A DNA stretch of 64,000 nt from Solirubrobacterales bacterium (GTDB lineage: Bacteria; Actinomycetota; Thermoleophilia; Solirubrobacterales; 70-9): NCBI GenBank assembly GCA_009691195.1, contig SHVA01000011.1, positions 1 through 64,000 on the forward strand, written 5' to 3'. Both the position numbers and the translations under genes were made by a program. Below are positions 9,364-19,733 of the stretch, piece by piece (positions within the stretch are counted from its first letter, which is position 1; each line of letters starts with the position of its first letter). Under the pieces are notes generated by a model. That model was not told the DNA's origin. It worked only from the letters and a program-made list of their open reading frames with translations, and ran no database searches.

Positions 9364-10071
9364 CTAGTCGTCGAGGGAGCCTGTGAGGGCAGCGGTGGCC
9401 GCGGTCCCGTCGAGTGAGTCGAGGGCGCGCGGCAGTGACATCGCGACGCAGCTGAAGATCGGGATGTCGCGCTGCGTGTAGGCGCTGGACTCGGTTCCGC
9501 GCAGCTCCTGGACCAGGTCGAGGAAGTCGCCCGGCTCGTCGGCCTCGAAGGAGACGACGAACTCCTGGTCGTCGATGCCGAAGGAGTAGGCGGTGTTGAT
9601 CGAGATCTGGGGATAGCGGCGGCCGACCTCGATGTGGCTGGCCATGATCCGCCTGCGCTCCTCGAGCGGCAGCGCGTACCACTCGCGCTTCTTGTCGAGC
9701 GGGTAGACGAACAGGTACCGGCGATCCGAGACGCAGATCTCGCGCCGGACCCCCTCCTCGGAGTAGGGGGAGGGCTTGGTCATCGCCAGGTAGGAGTGTG
9801 GGACGTCGGCCCAGCGCGCCAGCCCGCTCTGCCCGAGCACGACATGGAAGGTGTGCAGGTCCTCGAGCACCGGGCTCTGGCTCAGGATCAGGAGGTCCGT
9901 GTCGCCCCGGGTCCCGACCGTTGAGTAGGCCCGCAGCGAGCGGTCCTCGGCGAAGTCCTCGCAGGCGGCGAGGAACTCGCGCTTGTCGCTGGCGCGCTGC
10001 TCGGGGTCCAGCCGCCTCCAGGCCGGATCGAGCTTGAAGAACGTGAACTTGACGAACGTGCGGTCGCTCAC
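9364..10071 (-). CDS. hemQ: Coproheme decarboxylase HemQ (chlorite-dismutase family)
   Basis: This 235-residue protein matches the HemQ/Cld family, which in Gram-positives performs the last step of the coproporphyrin-dependent heme pathway, two oxidative decarboxylations of coproheme to heme b. Recognisable blocks are FVKFTFFKLDPAWRRL (start), KKREWYALPLEERR (about residue 125-138) and MASHIEVGRRYP (about 140-151), which contains the proximal-His region, followed by SFGIDDQEFVVSFE. The GTG start at 10071 is 7 nt from a TAACCT box, so transcription is probably leaderless. No other heme gene is in view. It diverges from a glycosyltransferase gene over 101 nt. Confidence 0.9.
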   Translation of the reverse strand: MSDRTFVKFTFFKLDPAWRRLDPEQRASDKREFLAACEDFAEDRSLRAYSTVGTRGDTDLLILSQSPVLEDLHTFHVVLGQSGLARWADVPHSYLAMTKPSPYSEEGVRREICVSDRRYLFVYPLDKKREWYALPLEERRRIMASHIEVGRRYPQISINTAYSFGIDDQEFVVSFEADEPGDFLDLVQELRGTESSAYTQRDIPIFSCVAMSLPRALDSLDGTAATAALTGSLDD

Positions 10072-10078
10072 CGGATGG

Positions 10079-10084
10079 AGGTTA
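10079..10084 (-). promoter_or_regulatory. -10 box TAACCT, leaderless hemQ start
   Basis: On the reverse strand TAACCT ends 7 nt before the GTG at 10071, the standard leaderless spacing in this window. Confidence 0.5.
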
Positions 10085-10160
10085 CCCGCGGGAAACCGGT
10101 GGCCCGCCCCGGTGTCGGCGCGATTGTGACGCCCGTCCGATGTGGCGCTGGGCGACTCGG

Positions 10161-10166
10161 TACCAT
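10161..10166 (+). promoter_or_regulatory. -10 box TACCAT, leaderless glycosyltransferase start
   Basis: TACCAT ends 6 nt before the ATG at 10173. This decides against the in-frame codon at 10140, which would lie upstream of the predicted transcription start. Confidence 0.55.
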
Positions 10167-10172
10167 CGCGCG

Positions 10173-12512
10173 ATGCGCATAGCCCTTGTTTCGCCCTATT
10201 CCTGGACCTATCAGGGGGGCGTCAACAGGCACGTAGAGGCGCTTGCCGAGGAGCTGCTCGGTCGCGGTCACCACGTTCGCGTCATGGCGCCGTGGGATCC
10301 GCCCGACAACCTCAGCCGTCGTCTTCATCGTGCCACCCCCGAGGCCCGCGAGCGGCCTGATTACCTCCTGCCCCTGGGCCGGACGATCGGGTTCAACTCC
10401 AACGGCGCCGTCTCCAACCTCAGCCCCTCGCCGCTCGCGGTGATGCAGATGCGCGAGGAGCTCCGCAAGGGCGACTTCGACGTGGTCCACGTGCACGAGC
10501 CGGTTGCGCCGCTGATCGGCTGGGACGCGATGAGCTTCCGCGACACCCCCGTGGTCGGGACCTTCCACGCCTACGCCACCAAGCCGGTGCCCAACCACAT
10601 CGCCTCGCTCGGCGGCGCCCGCCGTAAGTTCAACCAGCTTTCGGCCCGCATCGCCGTCTCGGAGGCGGCCGCTTGGACCGGCAGGCGCTGGTTCGGCGGC
10701 TCCTACCGGATCATCCCCAACGGCGTTGACGTCGCCGAGGCCCCGGTCGGCCCCAAGTCGCGGGCCGACCACCTCAGGGTCCTGTTCGTCGGCCGCGCCG
10801 AGGAGCGCAAGGGCCTGCCGGTCCTGCTCGCCGCCTTCGGCGCCCTGGTCGGGCACGTGCCCTCCCGCCTGACGGTCGTCGGCGCCGAGCGCGGAGAGGT
10901 GGAGCGCTACCTCCCCGACCCGCGGCTCGCCTCCCGGATCGACACCCACGGCCGTGTCAGCGACGAGGATCTCTGGCGTCACCTCGGTGAGGCCGACGTG
11001 CTCTGCGCGCCCTCCCTCGGCGGAGAGAGCTTCGGGATGATCCTGATCGAGGCATTCGCCGCGGGCACGCCCGTGATCGCCTCCAACATCGGCGGCTACA
11101 GCGACGTCGTCACCGACGGCGTTGACGGCCTGCTGGTCCCACCCGCCGATCCCCAGCCCCTTGCCGAGGAGCTCCAGCGCGCCTGGCACGAGCCGGAGCG
11201 CCGCGCCGCGATGGGCATGGCCGGGCGCGAGAGCGCCCAGCGCTACGCCTGGCCGCGCGTCGCCGACCAGGTCACCGAGGTCTACGAGGAGGCCCGGGTC
11301 CCGACGCGTGCCCCGGCGACCAGGGCCCAGGCCATCGCCCGGACCGCCGGCGTGGTCCGATCCGACGGCGGCCCCAAGCTCCCGCCCCGCCGGCTGCCCT
11401 CGCTCGACCCCGCTCCCGCTCCCGCTCCCGCGACCGGAGGCCGCGGCCGGGCCGCGAGAAGGATCGCCATCGGCGTCGCCGGCATCCTCGGCGTCGGCCT
11501 CACCGTGCTCGCCGCCCGCAGGATCGGCGTCGACAAGGTCGCCGAGAACGTGATCCGCTCCGACGCCACATGGGTGCTGATCGCCTGCGCCCTGATGGTC
11601 GCCTCGCTCTTCTCCCGCGCAGCCTCGTGGATGGCGATCGCGCGCTCGGCCCTCCCGGGGCGCCAGATCCGCCGCCGCGACGTCACCTCGGCGACGATGA
11701 TCGGCGTGCTGATGTCGGCGACGCTGCCGGCGAGGCTGGGCGAGCCTGCCAGGGCGATGGTGCTCGCGCGCCGGATCGGCCGCATGCGCGAGACGTTCGC
11801 GGTGTTGATCGGGACCCTCGTCTCCCAGACCGTGCTCAACATCGTCGCGCTGGCGCTGCTCGGCGGGATCATCGTCACCAGCACCGACCTCTTCCACTCG
11901 AGCACCGAGAAGCTGTTCCTGTTCAGCGCCGCGCCGCTGCTGCTGCTCGTCGCCGTGCTGATGGCGCCGTCGCTGGTCCGCGCCAACGGCGAGGGCCGGA
12001 TCGCTCGCGTCGCCGCGACCGCTCGACGGGCGCTGAAGCAGGTACGCGCCGGCCTCGCCGTCTTCAAGGACCCCCGCCGCGGCAGCGCCGCGGCCTTTTT
12101 CCAGCTCTTCGCCTGGATGCTCCAGCTCCTCTCCTGCTTGGCGCTGTTCGCGGCCCTCGGGCTGGACCAGTCGGTCGGGATCGGCGCGGCGGCGGCGGTC
12201 CTGTTCGCGGTCAACGTCACCGCGGTCGTGCCGGCGACACCGTCGAACATCGGAATCTTCCAGCTGGCGGTGGTCAGCGTCCTCCACACTGGCTTTGGAA
12301 TCGGAGCCGCCGACGCGCTCGCCTACGGCGTCATCCTGCAGGCGGTCGAGATCGCGACCGCCGTCGGCCTCGGCCTGCCCGCCCTCGTCCGCGAGGGCGT
12401 CACCTGGTCGGACATGCGCCTGCGCGCCCTCTCGGCCTCGCCTGTCGAGCTCTCGCCGCGCCCGACCGAGCGCTCGCGCCGCCGCGAGGCCGCTCGCGAC
12501 TACGTCGCCTAG
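10173..12512 (+). CDS. GT4 glycosyltransferase fused to LPG-synthase-type (UPF0104) membrane domain
   Basis: This 779-residue protein joins two domains. Residues 1 to about 375 form a GT-B family 4 glycosyltransferase: MRIALVSPYSWTYQGGVNRH resembles PimA-type starts, VVHVHEPVAP and IIPNGVDV follow, and GGESFGMILIEAFAAG is the nucleotide-sugar-binding E-x7-E region (about 280-295). A Pro/Ala/Arg-rich linker (about 376-425) leads into about eight hydrophobic segments (about 428-735) of the lysylphosphatidylglycerol-synthase transmembrane/flippase-like family, with VVPATPSNIGIFQ as its best motif. PimA homologues mannosylate phosphatidylinositol. The fusion suggests synthesis of a glycolipid and its transfer or flipping by the same polypeptide, which is inference. 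It begins with a leaderless-type start and diverges from hemQ. Confidence 0.87.
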   Translation: MRIALVSPYSWTYQGGVNRHVEALAEELLGRGHHVRVMAPWDPPDNLSRRLHRATPEARERPDYLLPLGRTIGFNSNGAVSNLSPSPLAVMQMREELRKGDFDVVHVHEPVAPLIGWDAMSFRDTPVVGTFHAYATKPVPNHIASLGGARRKFNQLSARIAVSEAAAWTGRRWFGGSYRIIPNGVDVAEAPVGPKSRADHLRVLFVGRAEERKGLPVLLAAFGALVGHVPSRLTVVGAERGEVERYLPDPRLASRIDTHGRVSDEDLWRHLGEADVLCAPSLGGESFGMILIEAFAAGTPVIASNIGGYSDVVTDGVDGLLVPPADPQPLAEELQRAWHEPERRAAMGMAGRESAQRYAWPRVADQVTEVYEEARVPTRAPATRAQAIARTAGVVRSDGGPKLPPRRLPSLDPAPAPAPATGGRGRAARRIAIGVAGILGVGLTVLAARRIGVDKVAENVIRSDATWVLIACALMVASLFSRAASWMAIARSALPGRQIRRRDVTSATMIGVLMSATLPARLGEPARAMVLARRIGRMRETFAVLIGTLVSQTVLNIVALALLGGIIVTSTDLFHSSTEKLFLFSAAPLLLLVAVLMAPSLVRANGEGRIARVAATARRALKQVRAGLAVFKDPRRGSAAAFFQLFAWMLQLLSCLALFAALGLDQSVGIGAAAAVLFAVNVTAVVPATPSNIGIFQLAVVSVLHTGFGIGAADALAYGVILQAVEIATAVGLGLPALVREGVTWSDMRLRALSASPVELSPRPTERSRRREAARDYVA

Positions 12513-13812: not shown

Positions 13813-16800
13813 TCAGGCCTCGACCTCGGCGGGGTCCTCCTCCGGAGGCAGCTCGCCGCCGCGCTCGGTGCCGGCGATCACCTCGTCGGGTGAGGGGCCT
13901 TTGGGGATGAAGCCGGACTTCATCCCGAAGTAGACGGCTTGGGGGTGGTGGGCGATGATTGCCACCGTTGACTGCTCGGGCATCACGGCGTGGCCGTCGC
14001 TGAGGGTCATGCCGATCTGCTCCAGGCCCAGCAGGCGCCAGACCTTCTCGTGCTCGGACTGCTCGGGGCAGGCCGGGTAGCCCCAGGAGTAGCGGCGCCC
14101 CTGGCCGGGCTCGATCCCAAGCTCCCGGCGCGCCTCGGAGTGCAGCCACTCGGCCAGGCCTTCCGCCGTCTGCACGCCGAGGCCGTGGGTGTAGAGCTGC
14201 TCGGCGAACTCGCCGTCGCGCTCGAGGCGGGCCATCAGCTCGGTGACCTCGGGGCCGACCGTCACCCCTTGGAGCGCGACCACGTCGCGCTCCCCTGAGT
14301 CCATCGGGCGGTAGAAGTCTGCGAGGCAGATGCGGTCGCGCTTGGGCTGGCGGGGGAAGATGAGGCGCTCCAGCTCGCGCTCGGGGTCGGCCGGGTCGAA
14401 GACGACCAGCTCGTTGCCGTCGGCGGCGGCGGGGAAGTAGCCCAGCCGGGCGCGAGGATGAAGGTAGTCCTGCTCGCGCCACATCCGCTCGAGCCTCGGG
14501 GCGAAGCCCTCGTCGCCGTTGTGGCCCTCGACGATCCGGCGCCACTCCTCGCCCTTCTTGCCGCGGCCGCCCCAGTGGAGCTTGAAGAGCACGTGGCGGT
14601 CGAGGTGGGGGTACACCTCGTCGAGGTCCACGTCGATCTCGCGGGCGCCCCAGAAGGGGGGCTCGGGGACCTCCACATCGGTGCGCGCCCCCGAGCGGAC
14701 GCTGTTGTCGGTGGTTGGCGGGCCGTCATCCGGCTTCTCGCCCTTCTCACGCAGCGCCTTGGCCTCGCTGCGGAAGCGCTCGACCAGCGCCGCTCGCCTC
14801 TCGGCGTCGACCAGCTCGTCCATCGTGTCGAGGCCGACGAAGGCGTCCTTGCAGTAGAAGACGCCCGGCTCGTAGATCTCCTCGGAGTCCCTGCCGCCGG
14901 GGTAGAGGATGCGGCGGCCGAAGTCGCGGTTGATCGCGGCGCCGCCGATCAGCACCGGGAATGAGAGCTTTCGCTCGTGCAGCTCCTGGACGGCGGCCGG
15001 CATCTGCTTGGAGGTGGAGACGAGCAGCGCCGAGAGGCCGATCGCGTCGGCCTCCTCCTCGATCGCCGAGCTGATGATCGTCTCGAGCGGGACCTGCTTG
15101 CCGAGGTCGATGACCGTGTAGCCGTTGTTGGTGAGGATGGTGTTGACCAGCGACTTGCCGATGTCGTGGACGTCGCCGAAGACGGTCGCGATCACGATCT
15201 TGCCCTTGCTGTGGCCCTCGATCCGCTCCAGGTAGTTCTCGAGCCGGGCGACGGCCCGCTTCATCACCTCGGCCGACTGCAGCACGAAGGGGAGGATCAG
15301 CTCGCCTGCGCCGAACTTGTCGCCGACCTCCTTCATCGCCGGCAACAGCACGGTGTTCAGCGTCGGGACCGCGCCGATCTTCTCGACGCTGCGGTCGATC
15401 CAGTCCTCGATCCCGTCCTTCTTTCGGTGCAGGATCTGCCAGTGCAGCGCCTGCTCGGGCTCCATGCCCTCGGTGGGATCGCCGGCTTGCTCCTCAGCCG
15501 TCTCGCCCTTCTGCTCGAAGTGGGCGATGAACCTCTCGAGGGCATCATCGGAGCGGTTGAAGACGAGCTCGTCTGTGAGCTCGCGCTCGTTCTCGGAAAT
15601 CTCCGCGTAGGGGGTGATCTGGTTGGGGTTGACCATCGCCAGGTCGAGCCCCGCCTCGACGCAGTGGTGCAGGAAGACCGAGTTGAGGACCGCGCGGGCG
15701 CTCGGCGAGATCCCGAAGGAGACGTTGGAGACCCCCAGGGAGGTCTTCACATGCGGGATCTCGGCCTTGATCCGCCTGATCCCCTCGATCGTCTCGACCG
15801 CTGAGGGACGCCACTCCTGCTCGCCGGTGGTGAGGGTGAAGGTGAGCGCGTCGAAGATCAGCGACTCGGGGTCAAGGCCATGCTCCTCACAGCAGAGCTC
15901 GTGGATTCGCTTGGCGATCTCGAGCTTGCGCTCGGCGGTCTTGGCCATCCCGACCTCGTCGATGGTCAGCGCGATCAGCGCCGCTCCGTGTGCCCTCGCC
16001 AGCGGCGCCACGCGGTCGAGCTTGTCGCGGCCCGCCTCGAGGTTGACCGAGTTGACGACGGGCCGGCCGGGGATGTGCTCGAGCGCGGCCTCGATCACCT
16101 CCGGCTCGGTCGAGTCGATCTGGATCGGGGCCGGTTGGGTCAGCGAGACCCGCTCGACCACAGCGCTCATCTGCTCGTCCTCGTCCTCGCGCTCGGTCAG
16201 CGCGACGCAGACGTCGAGCAGGTGGGCGCCTCCGTCGACCTGGTCCTGGGCAACACCGGTCAGGCCGTCGTAGTCGTCGGCCAGCAGCAACTCCTTGGCC
16301 TTTCGCGACCCCTGCGAGTTGACCCGCTCGCCGACCAGGGTCGGCGCGGGCTCCTGGGCAAGCGGGGTGGCGGTGATCATCGAAGAGACCTGAATCGGGC
16401 CGGGGGAGGGACGCTCCCCGGGAGTGAGCCCCGCGATCCGCTCGCGGATCGCGGCGATATGTTCGGGAGTGGTGCCGCAGCAGCCGCCGACGATGCCGAC
16501 GCCGTGGCGCTCGACGAACTGGCCGAGGGCCTCGGCGAGCGGCTCGGGCTCGGTCGGGAAGATCGTTTCGCCGTCGGGCCCCTGGTGGGGGATCCCGGCG
16601 TTGGGGATGCAGTGCAGCGGCAGCGGCGAGTTCTCGCCGAGGTAGCGGATCGCGTCGCGCATGTCCTCGGGGCCGGTCGAGCAGTTGAGCCCGAGCACGT
16701 CGACCTCGAGCGCGGTCAGCGTCGTCATCAGCGCCGGGATGTCGGTGCCGAGCAGCATCGTCCCCGACTCGCGCAGGATGAACATGCTCGCCTGGATCGG

Positions 16801-17355
16801 GACGCTGCGGCCGATGCGCTTGAAGGCCTCGCGGGCGCCGAAGATTGCAGCCTTGGCCTCGAGGATGTCCTGCTGGGTCTCGATGATCAGGAGATCGGCG
16901 CCGCCCTGAATCAGGGCGCCGGCCTGCTCGTCGAAGACCTCGACCAGCCTGCCGAAGCTGATGTCGCCGAGGGTCGGGTCGTCGCTCGCCGGCAGGAACC
17001 CGGTGGGGCCGATCGAGCCGGCGACGAAGCGATCGGGCCCGGCCGCCTTGCGGGCGATCTCGGCGGCCCTGCGGTTGATCTCCAGCGTCTGCTCGCCGAT
17101 GCCCCACTCGTCGAGCTTGAGGCGGCTGCCCTGGAAGCTGTCGGTCTCCAGGACCTCGGCGCCCGCGTCGAGCATCGCCGTGTGCACGCCCTCGATCACG
17201 TCGGGGCGGTTGAGGATCAGCGCCTCGTGGCACTTGCCCTTGAGCCCGCCGTAGTCCTCGGGCCCGAGATCGAACTCCTCCAGGGTCGCGCCCATGCCGC
17301 CGTCGAAGAGGACGATGCGGTCGCGCGCCGCGGCCAGGAAATCACGTTCGGACAT
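13813..17355 (-). CDS. metH: Cobalamin-dependent methionine synthase MetH
   Basis: This 1180-residue enzyme methylates homocysteine using methyl-tetrahydrofolate through methylcobalamin. Domains in order: homocysteine methyltransferase (about 1-315; Zn ligands in GLNCSTGP near 223 and GGCCGT near 290), pterin-binding (about 335-600), cobalamin cap (about 630-720), B12-binding with the lower-ligand motif GDVHDIGKSLV (about 725-735), and the SAM-dependent activation domain (about 895-1150, with GYPACPEQSEHEKVW). All catalytic modules are present and length is normal. Start ATG 17355 is supported by the conserved IVLFDGGMGATLEEF close to the N-terminus; a TACCCT box lies 8 nt upstream. It diverges from metE across 53 nt, leaving no space for a B12 riboswitch. 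Confidence 0.95.
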   Translation of the reverse strand: MSERDFLAAARDRIVLFDGGMGATLEEFDLGPEDYGGLKGKCHEALILNRPDVIEGVHTAMLDAGAEVLETDSFQGSRLKLDEWGIGEQTLEINRRAAEIARKAAGPDRFVAGSIGPTGFLPASDDPTLGDISFGRLVEVFDEQAGALIQGGADLLIIETQQDILEAKAAIFGAREAFKRIGRSVPIQASMFILRESGTMLLGTDIPALMTTLTALEVDVLGLNCSTGPEDMRDAIRYLGENSPLPLHCIPNAGIPHQGPDGETIFPTEPEPLAEALGQFVERHGVGIVGGCCGTTPEHIAAIRERIAGLTPGERPSPGPIQVSSMITATPLAQEPAPTLVGERVNSQGSRKAKELLLADDYDGLTGVAQDQVDGGAHLLDVCVALTEREDEDEQMSAVVERVSLTQPAPIQIDSTEPEVIEAALEHIPGRPVVNSVNLEAGRDKLDRVAPLARAHGAALIALTIDEVGMAKTAERKLEIAKRIHELCCEEHGLDPESLIFDALTFTLTTGEQEWRPSAVETIEGIRRIKAEIPHVKTSLGVSNVSFGISPSARAVLNSVFLHHCVEAGLDLAMVNPNQITPYAEISENERELTDELVFNRSDDALERFIAHFEQKGETAEEQAGDPTEGMEPEQALHWQILHRKKDGIEDWIDRSVEKIGAVPTLNTVLLPAMKEVGDKFGAGELILPFVLQSAEVMKRAVARLENYLERIEGHSKGKIVIATVFGDVHDIGKSLVNTILTNNGYTVIDLGKQVPLETIISSAIEEEADAIGLSALLVSTSKQMPAAVQELHERKLSFPVLIGGAAINRDFGRRILYPGGRDSEEIYEPGVFYCKDAFVGLDTMDELVDAERRAALVERFRSEAKALREKGEKPDDGPPTTDNSVRSGARTDVEVPEPPFWGAREIDVDLDEVYPHLDRHVLFKLHWGGRGKKGEEWRRIVEGHNGDEGFAPRLERMWREQDYLHPRARLGYFPAAADGNELVVFDPADPERELERLIFPRQPKRDRICLADFYRPMDSGERDVVALQGVTVGPEVTELMARLERDGEFAEQLYTHGLGVQTAEGLAEWLHSEARRELGIEPGQGRRYSWGYPACPEQSEHEKVWRLLGLEQIGMTLSDGHAVMPEQSTVAIIAHHPQAVYFGMKSGFIPKGPSPDEVIAGTERGGELPPEEDPAEVEA

Positions 17356-17363
17356 GGCGATGG

Positions 17364-17369
17364 AGGGTA
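17364..17369 (-). promoter_or_regulatory. -10 box TACCCT before metH
   Basis: Reverse-strand TACCCT ends 8 nt before the metH ATG at 17355. It lies back to back with the metE -10 box inside a 53-nt spacer. Confidence 0.45.
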
Positions 17370-17396
17370 CCCAGGGCCCGGCTCGCGCCGCGCGGG

Positions 17397-17402
17397 TAGC
17401 CT
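17397..17402 (+). promoter_or_regulatory. -10 box TAGCCT, leaderless metE start
   Basis: TAGCCT ends exactly 6 nt before the metE ATG at 17409, predicting a leaderless mRNA. The same hexamer at the same spacing precedes the truncated ORF at 44719. Confidence 0.55.
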
Positions 17403-17408
17403 TGCTGC

Positions 17409-19733
17409 ATGGCCCTCTCCAACATCTCGGGCTTCCCCAGGATCGGCCGAGACCGGGAGCTCAAGTTCGCCACGGAAAGCTATTGGCGGGGCGAGAGCTC
17501 GGCCGATGAGCTTGCCTTTGCCGGCCGCGAGATCCGGCTCGCGAACTGGAAGCTGATGCAGGAGCGGGGGATCGACCTGATCCCCTCCAACGACTTCTCC
17601 TACTACGACCAGGTCCTCGACGCCGTCGCCCTCTTCGGCGCCGTTCCCGACCGATACGGCCACGAGGTGGGCGACGTGGGCCTCGACCTCTACTTCGCGA
17701 TGGCGCGCGGAAGGCAGGCTGACGGCGTTGACGTCACCGCGATGGAGATGACCAAGTGGTTCGACACCAACTACCACTACATCGTCCCCGAGCTCGGCCC
17801 CGACACGCGCTTCTCGCTGTCTGCGAGCAAGCCGTTCGACGAGCACGCCGAGGCGATGGAGGAGCTCGGGATCGACACGGTACCGGTGCTGATCGGGCCC
17901 GTCAGCTTCCTGCTCCTGGCCAAGCCCGCCGAAGGTGTCGATGAGGGCTTCGACCGCCTCTCGCTGCTGGAGCCGCTGCTCGAGGCCTACGGCGAGGTGC
18001 TCGAGCGCCTCGCCGAGCAGGGCGCCGACTGGGTGCAGCTCGACGAGCCCTGCTTCGTCGAGGACCGCTCCGAGCACGAGCTGGATGCGCTGCGCCTCGC
18101 CTACGAGGAGCTGGCCAGGGTGCGTGAGCGGACCCGGATCTGCGTCAAGACCTACTTCGACCACAGCGGAGACGCCTACGGCGTGCTCCGCAACCTCCCC
18201 GTCGAGGGCGTCGGGCTCGACTTCGTCCGGGGCCTTCACAACGTCGAGCTGATCGCCAAGCAGGGCGGCCTCGAGGACCGCTGGCTGTTCGCCGGCATCG
18301 TCGACGGCCGCAACGTCTGGATCAGCGACCTCGAGCACAGCCTCGATCTGCTCGAGGGGCTGAGCACGCGCACCTCCCAGCTCGTCGTCTCGAGCTCCTG
18401 CTCGCTCATGCACAGCCCGCTCGACCTCGACGCCGAGCCGGCGGGCGTGGACGCCGACCTCGACGACGAGATGCGCTCCTGGATGTCCTTCGCCGTGCAG
18501 AAGGTGGGGGAGGTGGCGACGCTGGCGCTGGGCCTCGCCGGCGGGCGCCCGGCGATAGCCGAGCAGCTCGACGCCAACGACCGCGCGCTCGAGGACCGGC
18601 GCAACTCGCACCGCACCGCCAACCCCGAGATCCGCTCGCGGGTCGCGGCGCTCAGCGATGACGACGCCCGCCGTGAGGGCGGGTTCGCGGCGCGGCGCGA
18701 CGCCCAGCGCGAGCGGCTCGGCCTGCCGCCCTTCCCCTCGACCACGATCGGCTCCTATCCCCAGACCGACGAGATCCGCGGTGCCCGCCGCCGCCTCCGC
18801 GAGGGTGAGATCGACCGGCCCGCCTACACGGGGCTGATGGAGGCCGAGATCGAGCGGGTCGTCCGCTTCCAGGAGGAGATCGGCCTCGACGTGCTCGTCC
18901 ACGGCGAGCCCGAGCGCAACGACATGGTCCAGTACTTCGGCGAGCAGATGGAGGGCTACGTCTTCACCGAGAGCGCCTGGGTGCAGTCCTACGGCTCTCG
19001 CTGCGTGCGGCCGCCGATCATCTTCGGCGACGTACGCCGGCCCTCGCAGATGACCGTCGAGTGGACCACCTACGCCCAGTCGCTGACCGAGCGGCCGATG
19101 AAGGGGATGCTCACCGGCCCGGTGACGATGCTGCAGTGGTCCTTCGTGCGCGACGACCAGCCGCGCGCCGAAACCTGCCGCCAGCTCGCCCTGGCGATTC
19201 GCGACGAGGTCATCGACCTCGAGGCCGCCGGGGTGCCGATCATCCAGGTCGACGAGCCGGCGATCCGCGAGGGGCTGCCGCTTCGCCGCGACCGCTGGGA
19301 GGAGTACCTGGGCTGGGCGGTGGAGTGCTTCCGGATCTCGACCTCGGGAGTCCGCGATGAGACCCAGGTCCAGACCCACATGTGTTACTCGGACTTCGGC
19401 GAGATCATGGAGCAGATCGTCGCCATGGACGCCGACGTGCTCCTGATCGAGGCCGCGCGCTCGCGGATGGAGTTGCTCCACGATTGGGAGCGCAGCGGCT
19501 ACGAGCGTGACATCGGCCCGGGCGTCTATGACATCCACTCACCGCGGGTCCCTACGGCCGAGGAGATGGTGGAGCTGCTTCGGGCGGCGGCGGAGGTCCT
19601 CGAGCCCGAGCAGATCTGGGTCAACCCCGACTGCGGCCTCAAGACCCGCGCCTGGCCCGAGACCGAGGCGGCGCTGCGGAACATGGTCAACGCGGCCAAG
19701 CAGGCCCGCAATGAACTCCTCCGGGCGGGCTGA
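17409..19733 (+). CDS. metE: Cobalamin-independent methionine synthase MetE
   Basis: This 774-residue enzyme transfers a methyl group from 5-methyl-THF-(Glu)n directly to homocysteine. The N-terminal half begins with NISGFPRIGRDRELKFA; the C-terminal catalytic half begins near FPSTTIGSYPQTDEIR (about residue 440). Zinc ligands are visible in THMCYSDFGEI (His and Cys about 657-659) and VNPDCGLKTR (Cys about 741). Length and motifs are normal, so the enzyme should be active. It is divergently paired with metH, giving the cell both B12-dependent and B12-free routes. There is no room upstream for a riboswitch, and the TAGCCT-N6-ATG arrangement predicts a leaderless transcript, so any B12 switch must be protein-based. 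Confidence 0.95.
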   Translation: MALSNISGFPRIGRDRELKFATESYWRGESSADELAFAGREIRLANWKLMQERGIDLIPSNDFSYYDQVLDAVALFGAVPDRYGHEVGDVGLDLYFAMARGRQADGVDVTAMEMTKWFDTNYHYIVPELGPDTRFSLSASKPFDEHAEAMEELGIDTVPVLIGPVSFLLLAKPAEGVDEGFDRLSLLEPLLEAYGEVLERLAEQGADWVQLDEPCFVEDRSEHELDALRLAYEELARVRERTRICVKTYFDHSGDAYGVLRNLPVEGVGLDFVRGLHNVELIAKQGGLEDRWLFAGIVDGRNVWISDLEHSLDLLEGLSTRTSQLVVSSSCSLMHSPLDLDAEPAGVDADLDDEMRSWMSFAVQKVGEVATLALGLAGGRPAIAEQLDANDRALEDRRNSHRTANPEIRSRVAALSDDDARREGGFAARRDAQRERLGLPPFPSTTIGSYPQTDEIRGARRRLREGEIDRPAYTGLMEAEIERVVRFQEEIGLDVLVHGEPERNDMVQYFGEQMEGYVFTESAWVQSYGSRCVRPPIIFGDVRRPSQMTVEWTTYAQSLTERPMKGMLTGPVTMLQWSFVRDDQPRAETCRQLALAIRDEVIDLEAAGVPIIQVDEPAIREGLPLRRDRWEEYLGWAVECFRISTSGVRDETQVQTHMCYSDFGEIMEQIVAMDADVLLIEAARSRMELLHDWERSGYERDIGPGVYDIHSPRVPTAEEMVELLRAAAEVLEPEQIWVNPDCGLKTRAWPETEAALRNMVNAAKQARNELLRAG

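Follow-up and report, generated by a model that had tools for sequence, protein, structure and literature searches.

Organization of the locus

The window, the whole stretch of 64,000 nucleotides analysed here, lies on C8, one of the 60 contigs of a draft genome of 2.3 Mb with a completeness of 92.65%. As seen in Table 1, it carries a gene in which a GT4 glycosyltransferase is joined to an LPG_synthase_TM (PF03706, UPF0104) membrane domain, referred to below as the fusion. The original prediction had placed both domains in one frame, and the ORF check agrees, since the gene is a single open frame without internal stops. The earliest in-frame start is an ATG at 10140, which would give 790 aa; however, in an alignment of homologues the conserved start MRIALVSPYS maps to 10173. 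The G+C content by codon position of the plus frame (0.72/0.53/0.93) is typical of a coding frame. Three Pfam families, Glycos_transf_1, Glyco_trans_1_4, and Glyco_transf_4, match inside residues 15-353, and PF03706 matches residues 435-732, all above the curated cut-offs. The PF03706 match (E 4e-30) scores 105.7 bits against a cut-off of 33.4 and covers profile positions 5-300 of 302. Two further PF03706 genes are found in the same genome, on contigs C25 and C21. A long antisense ORF overlaps the fusion gene; antisense ORFs were set aside as the gene because all homology evidence lies on the plus frame.

The structure of the 779 residues was predicted with a mean pLDDT of 80.3 and a pTM of 0.65, and at this pTM the placing of the two domains relative to each other is unsure. 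The linker between them had been described as Pro/Ala-rich, which is true in part; it also keeps a conserved stretch.

Table 1. Features of the fusion locus and its upstream flank
Feature	Position	Strand	Details
Chlorite-dismutase-family gene	9364..10071	-	Recurs beside the fusion locus
Short gap between the chlorite-dismutase-family gene and the fusion	10072..10172		Many relatives have a ~650-aa ALP-like/multi-TM gene here
CDS of the GT4-LPG_synthase_TM fusion	10173..12512	+	779 aa plus stop
PimA-like GT4 (GT-B) domain	10173..11306	+	Residues 1-378, predicted cytosolic; Pfam, phmmer to 4n9w/2gej, model
Linker	11307..11444	+	Residues 379-424, conserved RLPSLDP stretch; model of low confidence at 410-423
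PF03706 LPG_synthase_TM / UPF0104 membrane domain	11445..12509	+	Pfam match to residues 435-732 (11475-12368)
First broken hairpin (predicted)	11673..11777	+	Helices 501-517 and 523-535, around the conserved PARLGE motif
Second broken hairpin (predicted)	12180..12296	+	Helices 670-683 and 692-708, contains Gln697
Gln723...Glu726	12339..12350	+	On the last long helix; Arg...Tyr positions of YbhN

In the window genome, the fusion is directly abutted by the chlorite-dismutase-family gene, which we take to be HemQ-type. It shares 60% identity with its counterpart at L033, a relative's locus where another gene sits between the two. The intervening gene, upstream of the fusion and on the same strand, encodes a protein of about 650 aa with an ALP-like N-terminal domain and a multi-TM half. 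It was found upstream in at least 35 of the best 80 named loci from 574 relatives, some of the others being too short-flanked. As an obligate partner this gene was rejected: it was not found in the window genome (G000) and was found in 38 of the 63 genomes sampled from the order, three of which are f4 genomes without the fusion. Its ALP-like half gave a fold match to phosphoglycerate mutase (Z 14.6), and His is lacking from its columns that are invariant or nearly so. A weak match to O-antigen ligase, in 1 of 27 members, was below threshold (E 0.16) and was not counted as a finding. The fold lists gave no fold for the multi-TM half, which they barely tested, the matches having been taken by the ALP-like half.

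Distribution of the fusion

A profile (A1) built from 24 fusions was used to scan 200 genomes of the class with completeness of at least 85, with matches sorted by E-value and five candidates scored per genome. It can be seen that the architecture is nearly fixed in one order. A stop-free fusion in one frame was found in 54 of the 63 sampled genomes of the window's order, nearly full length in 53 of them and matching residues 23-766 in G206; the fusions that make up A1 are 50-75% identical to the window protein. The halves are separated merely by contig ends in G007, G025, G128, and G175. In G187, a profile search of the locus found the glycosyltransferase present and the membrane half absent, and the fusion was not found with profile A1 in four other genomes of the order, G002 and three f4 genomes. 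None of the 137 genomes in the rest of the class was fused among the matches listed. The best match there reached 374.5 bits over positions 1-381, compared to at least 894 bits for the 54 fusions. Likewise, no fusion was seen in the 144 genomes outside the order in a sample of 149 genomes of the phylum, which overlaps the class sample.

Genomes outside the phylum were covered solely via the best 80 loci of a named-genome scan (574 relatives). The genomes with the fusion in these loci belong to Solirubrobacter, Conexibacter, Paraconexibacter, Patulibacter, Svornostia, and many Solirubrobacterales MAGs, with the complete Paraconexibacter antarcticus chromosome, Solirubrobacter soli, and Patulibacter minatonensis as named examples. 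The draft state of the window genome could suggest that the junction is an artefact of assembly or reading frame. However, the same one-frame architecture recurs in 54 of 63 genomes, six of which are single-contig assemblies (G026, G028, G109, G152, G165, and G190), and in named isolates. This refutes an assembly artefact, and there is practically no chance that the junction arose from an error of assembly or frame.

Split gene pairs in related families

Thirty-six loci of PimA-like glycosyltransferases with their flanks, from sister families of the class, were picked from A1 matches and searched with profiles derived from the fusion. In family f7, a separate PF03706 gene adjoins the glycosyltransferase gene on the same strand in 14 of 15 loci; the exception is L179, without a PF03706 gene, and the PF03706 gene of L071 reads in two frames. 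All 5 loci of family f9 have a separate same-strand PF03706 neighbour, and in family f5 a same-strand pair was found in 3 of 4 loci, with the membrane gene 0.8-0.9 kb upstream of the glycosyltransferase. The fourth f5 locus, L068, has a contig edge on the side where the membrane gene would be. The pair of L057 was confirmed by Pfam. No LPGS (PF03706) gene lies beside the glycosyltransferase in the 5 loci of family f6 (the contig of L064 ends just downstream), the 5 loci of family f8, or 2 further f6 loci (L191 and L192) in which the glycosyltransferase is fused to PHP. Outside the class, this neighbour was absent from all 5 loci of f23 and from all 15 loci L158-L172. The state of f6, f8, and f23 indicates that a PimA-like glycosyltransferase can work without an LPGS partner, which was counted against the proposed making and moving of a glycolipid. 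In the f6 locus L176, the glycosyltransferase instead adjoins a glycerol-3-phosphate-acyltransferase-like gene and a second GT4.

Therefore, separate PimA-like and UPF0104 neighbours do exist in relatives, in f7, f9, and f5 and not in f6 and f8. The original prediction of a physical coupling is sustained by the fusion in one order and by the pairs in three sister families, whereas f6 and f8 have no such pair. Genome evidence shows this coupling, and a functional link between the glycosyltransferase and the membrane domain is the firmest conclusion of this analysis. The two-gene pair is presumably ancestral to the fusion. The fusion is thus real and not unprecedented, because related bacteria often keep its halves as neighbouring genes.

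Profile matches supplied another 11 loci, whose PF03706 genes belong to this branch or to one close to it. In 3 of them, the PF03706 gene has a glycosyltransferase as its immediate same-strand neighbour, GT4 in L203 and L204 and GT2 in L200, the latter a GT2-LPGS gene pair from the same order as the fusion. In L196 the glycosyltransferase is one ORF away, L197 has it on the opposite strand, and none was found beside the PF03706 gene in L194, L195, L198, L199, L201, and L202. A same-strand neighbouring glycosyltransferase was not seen in 7 of the 11 loci, which was counted against the reading, set out below, that the fusion both makes and moves a glycolipid.

The glycosyltransferase half and PimA

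PimA, the GDP-mannose-dependent phosphatidylinositol alpha-mannosyltransferase, has the closest solved sequence (phmmer E 6.4e-56 for 4n9w and 7.5e-56 for 2gej), followed by 6kih at 1e-24. The best fold match of the model is also PimA (2gej; Z 40.2, rmsd 2.5, 348 residues aligned), over residues 1-378, and the two share the GT4/GT-B fold. A PimA-like GT4 half had been predicted and is borne out by sequence and predicted fold. The plain label PimA is another matter, as residue and gene-context tests speak against it. In a tree of 73 glycosyltransferases, those of the fused group (17 fused and that of G187) form one clade with support 100, and M. smegmatis PimA groups with six pgsA-linked proteins with support 99; the deep order of this tree does not settle the sister lineage of the fused clade. 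The short pgsA-linked rows L165 and L168 were excluded from the tree and the residue counts.

Mapping on 2gej shows that every one of the 48 fusions retains Gly16, Asn63, His118, Lys202, and Glu274. Gly16, His118, Arg196, Lys202, and Glu274 of PimA, which we take to be donor and catalytic residues, are all present in the window protein, and across the fusions these positions are largely kept. The position of Arg196, presumably a donor-phosphate residue, is Arg in 25 of 48 fusions and Gln in 23, a split that was counted against the reading of a glycolipid maker and mover. A difference is seen at Arg68, assumed here to be an acceptor-side residue: PimA has Arg, whereas Asn takes its place in 47 of 48 fusions, among them the window protein. 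Asn is also found in 17 of 20 LPGS-adjacent glycosyltransferases and in 5 of 5 from f23, compared to one of 13 pgsA-linked PimA-like proteins, 9 of which keep Arg. Since the f23 enzymes have no LPGS neighbour, Asn at this position does not strictly track the membrane partner.

The gene context differs as well. PimA stands alone, whereas the fusion carries a membrane domain. Its relatives from outside the class have a pgsA-like gene nearby in 15 of 15 loci L158-L172 (in L164 the match is weak, partial, and 3.8 kb away); in contrast, no pgsA-type gene occurs among the ten proteins around the fusion. On contig C37 of the window genome, INO1 and a pgsA-like gene lie side by side with another PimA-like glycosyltransferase, one fused to a PHP domain.

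These observations bear on the possibility that the fusion is this order's PimA, which would mannosylate phosphatidylinositol and flip the resulting phosphatidylinositol mannoside with its membrane half. PimA is by far the best match, the genome has both INO1 and a pgsA-like gene, and the f23 enzymes show that Asn replaces Arg68 in the absence of an LPGS gene too. Also, the PHP-linked enzyme is itself divergent (end branch of 2.43 in the tree), and fewer residues of PimA are retained in the 3 rows of PHP-linked copies. However, it is this different enzyme, and not the fusion, that adjoins pgsA and INO1, and the contrast at Arg68 between fusions and pgsA-linked proteins, together with the lack of a pgsA-type gene around the fusion, makes a role as the order's PimA quite unlikely. 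Filing the fusion as PimA is not supported. More likely than the plain PimA reaction is an acceptor that is a non-phosphatidylinositol lipid, or phosphatidylinositol bound differently.

The membrane half, MprF and YbhN

The helices of the model are predicted at residues 423-451, 465-493, 501-517/523-535, 538-570, 578-601, 634-661, 670-683/692-708, and 712-741, in the order long-long-broken hairpin-long-long-long-broken hairpin-long. Eight transmembrane segments had been proposed, a number that holds in MprF counting, the model having six long helices and two broken hairpins. The same order of helices and broken hairpins is described for Subdomain 1 of MprF (PMC8131360), and the likeness is one between a predicted layout and that description. 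Structure prediction therefore gives a PimA-like fold in the first half and a two-broken-hairpin layout in the second. MprF also has an aminoacyl-lipid synthase domain and a Subdomain 2, whereas the fusion has no such synthase (DUF2156) domain by Pfam and no room for Subdomain 2. Lys and Arg number 35 in the 154 residues of loops taken as inside and 2 in the 44 residues taken as outside. This count assumes a cytosolic N-terminal side and re-entrant hairpins and is a consistency check only, because the sides were set with the sequence in view. The predicted topology is consistent with a glycosyltransferase domain and a C-terminus in the cytosol.

The likeness to MprF and to stand-alone PF03706/UPF0104 proteins such as YbhN (the PplT domain) lies in the PF03706 match. 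When the membrane half is aligned with YbhN of E. coli and both PF03706 paralogues of the window genome, the Glu/Arg/Tyr positions of the YbhN core are Gln697/Gln723/Glu726 in the fusion. All 28 fused proteins in the alignment have Gln/Gln/Glu, as do all 12 adjacent proteins included (22 adjacent genes were found). The paralogues have Asp/Arg/Ala (C25) and Gln/Gln/Ile (C21), and two members of f5 pairs have Gln/Gln/Gln; the Gln/Gln pair alone is therefore not peculiar to the fusion branch. The YbhN residues fit the salt bridge and the YRxxY motif of the MprF core (PMC8131360), a mapping that goes through YbhN, with MprF itself unaligned. According to PMC11980842, MprF is a lipid scramblase in vitro, and mutating its core Glu-Arg pair does not abolish this scrambling. 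A Gln/Gln/Glu core is thus compatible with transport. The replacement of the YbhN Glu/Arg pair by two Gln residues, with Glu726 nearby, was nevertheless entered against a role in making and moving a glycolipid.

The membrane-half profile found no PDB chain at E <= 1, and the single-sequence match to YbhN was weak (probability 4.4, E 0.0094). No MprF chain stood in the fold lists of the full-length model; these lists were filled by GT-B chains from the glycosyltransferase domain and therefore say nothing about the membrane fold. An LPGS grouping of 28 fused proteins, 14 adjacent proteins of f7 and f9, and the G187 paralogue against 5 others was not rejected (p-AU 0.73), which does not amount to proof of a clade; adj_L059, adjf5_L184, and YbhN were left out of this test. 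The LPGS tree has several long branches, and its base is not resolved. The relation to lipid-flipping proteins that had been claimed stands as far as membership of the PF03706 family is concerned, whereas flipping itself is presumed from the family and the YbhN/MprF core pair is replaced.

Proposed function

The glycosyltransferase half probably glycosylates a membrane lipid, and the PF03706 half, to judge by its sequence family, probably moves lipids across the membrane. Taken together, it seems somewhat probable that the fusion is a two-domain machine that makes and moves a glycolipid, a lipid glycosyltransferase joined to an MprF-like lipid translocase. For catalysis, donor, acceptor lipid, and translocation, we infer the following scheme. 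The cytosolic GT4 domain would transfer a sugar from a nucleotide sugar, likely GDP-mannose by closeness to PimA, onto the head group of a lipid of the inner leaflet. The PF03706 domain, with two broken hairpins as in MprF, would then let the product reach the outer leaflet, either through flipping or through scrambling made selective by proximity, as has been proposed for MprF (PMC11980842). Covalent attachment would raise the local substrate concentration for the membrane domain.

The membrane domain could instead move no lipid, and serve to anchor the glycosyltransferase and present the lipid acceptor to its active site. PimA is a peripheral enzyme at the membrane (PMC12041525), and the cytosolic lipid site of MprF may pass lipid to a soluble domain (PMC11980842). 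The replaced charged core pair of YbhN and the loss of the membrane half in G187 point in the same direction, and the glycosyltransferase of G187 was also counted against the combined making and moving of a glycolipid. However, the predicted two-hairpin architecture, with motifs invariant across 48 fusions, exceeds the needs of an anchor. Moreover, the partner in f7, f9, and f5 is a separate protein and, not being in the same chain as the glycosyltransferase, cannot be a covalent anchor. An anchoring role is accordingly judged unlikely.

It is very improbable that the acceptor is a polyprenyl phosphate or a lipid-linked sugar and that the fusion serves a surface glycan or protein glycosylation. 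Such a role would resemble that of AglD of Haloferax volcanii, also a fusion of a glycosyltransferase with a UPF0104 domain (PMC5898192); the GT2-LPGS pair of L200 comes from the same order, and the upstream multi-TM protein of many relatives might be a glycan enzyme. Nevertheless, the glycosyltransferase here is a PimA-like GT4 and not a GT2, and neither the window genome nor 24 others among the 63 of the order yielded the upstream gene.

Within the favoured reading of a glycolipid-making and -moving protein, a more specific and rather doubtful version may be considered. The fusion might be a "glyco-MprF", a single-chain glycolipid synthase-translocase derived from an operonic pair that fused within one class. 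It would represent a distinct PF03706 branch whose core Glu/Arg changed to Gln/Gln with a nearby Glu, tuned to a neutral glycosylated head group, and would supply a surface glycolipid not yet described.

Relation to known fusions

AglD is a GT2 enzyme, and by Pfam the fusion has no GT2 catalytic domain, all of its glycosyltransferase domains being GT4-type. AglD also belongs to the archaeal N-glycosylation pathway, whereas the fusion is bacterial and of the PimA kind. The likeness of the two lies in an N-terminal glycosyltransferase followed by a C-terminal UPF0104 domain, for which a flippase role was proposed in 2015 (PMC5898192). The transport domain of MprF is stated to be 'often fused to ... 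glycosyltransferases' in PMC11980842, citing the PplT preprint of Hauser et al. 2022, and these glycosyltransferase-PplT fusions show the same kind of domain joining. Therefore, the kind of fusion was already known from AglD and from the fusions cited there. No description of a PimA-like GT4-PF03706 protein was found in the open-access literature searched. This analysis adds the version with a PimA-like GT4, which is nearly fixed in one order and split in three sister families, together with its Gln/Gln/Glu core.

The route of bacterial glycophospholipids across the membrane is often unknown, and the flippase for mycobacterial phosphatidylinositol mannosides was still called unknown in a 2025 paper (PMC12041525). 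A natural fusion together with an unfused pair in sister families provides a clean genetic handle. The natural fusion implies that the membrane half should take as its substrate what the glycosyltransferase half produces. An orthologous mycobacterial flippase is not directly handed over by the fusion, and this orthology argument was rejected, because the glycosyltransferase-linked LPGS branch (profile A4) exceeds 100 bits in 1 of 135 genomes outside the class. Profile A4 was run on the 149 genomes of the phylum with the 14 best first-look candidates scored per genome, so that a remote copy could be missed. Genomes of f30, f35, f39, and f43, in which a PimA-like glycosyltransferase lies beside pgsA at the loci retrieved, are absent from the 25 genomes matched by A4. 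The single match above 100 bits outside the class was found in G234, at 121.9 bits.

The protein family encoded upstream of the fusion

As seen in the table, two members of the family whose genes are located upstream of the fusion in many fusion-bearing relatives are displayed. The family set A3 (27 sequences) represents a conserved family of about 650 aa, in which a degenerate ALP-superfamily domain is followed by a multi-TM half carrying an RF(F/Y)GIGNELE motif. No match over the cut-off was obtained with Pfam for this family. The protein is possibly a pseudo-enzyme with some membrane function. Additionally, a family match of 118 bits was found in a distant genome outside the class (f23, L153), where it adjoins a PimA-like GT on the opposite strand.

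Coordinates of the features described
Feature	Sequence	Positions	Strand
ALP-like/multi-TM family member	L033	4970-6961	
ALP-like/multi-TM family member	L048	5083-6987	
Linker of the fusion	window	11307-11444	+
pgsA-like gene, INO1 and GT4-PHP fusion in a row	L029 (window genome G000, contig C37)	5435-9388	
PimA-like GT cluster of the sister families	L176	4188-6034	
MetH (cobalamin-dependent methionine synthase) and MetE (cobalamin-independent)	window	13813-19733	-, +

Linker and atypical loci

Across the order, the linker of the fusion retains a conserved PADG...RLPSLDP stretch, which is more than a plain spacer would need. In one genome (G020, contig C14, locus L052), an ALP-like gene, a PimA-like GT without the membrane half, a second ALP-like gene and the full fusion lie in tandem; because a stretch of unknown bases occurs close to where the first GT begins, this arrangement is possibly an assembly fault. 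A PimA-like GT of the fused clade in G187 (L055) also lacks the membrane half and is followed by another gene, the membrane domain having likely been lost secondarily. The fusion is also present, at 54% identity, in a MAG record titled Bifidobacterium breve (L142), a title that is probably a mislabel.

Other PimA-like GTs and neighboring genes

Among the PimA-like GTs with a separate PF03706 gene alongside (loci L057-L190), 13 of 20 carry Arg at the position of PimA Glu282, the second Glu of the EX7E motif. On contig C37 of the window genome, a GT4 fused to a PHP domain lines up with INO1 and a pgsA-like gene. Such a GT4-PHP fusion is also encoded in two genomes of sister family f6 (L191, L192), at a distance of 1.4 kb from a pgsA-like gene. 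At f6/f8 loci (L176, L180), a PimA-like GT is clustered with a glycerol-3-phosphate-acyltransferase-like (PlsY-type) gene, supported by Pfam in L176 only, and with a second GT4 beginning TNDFPPRIGG, a motif of PimB'. In the window, MetH and MetE are neighboring divergent genes separated by 53 bp.
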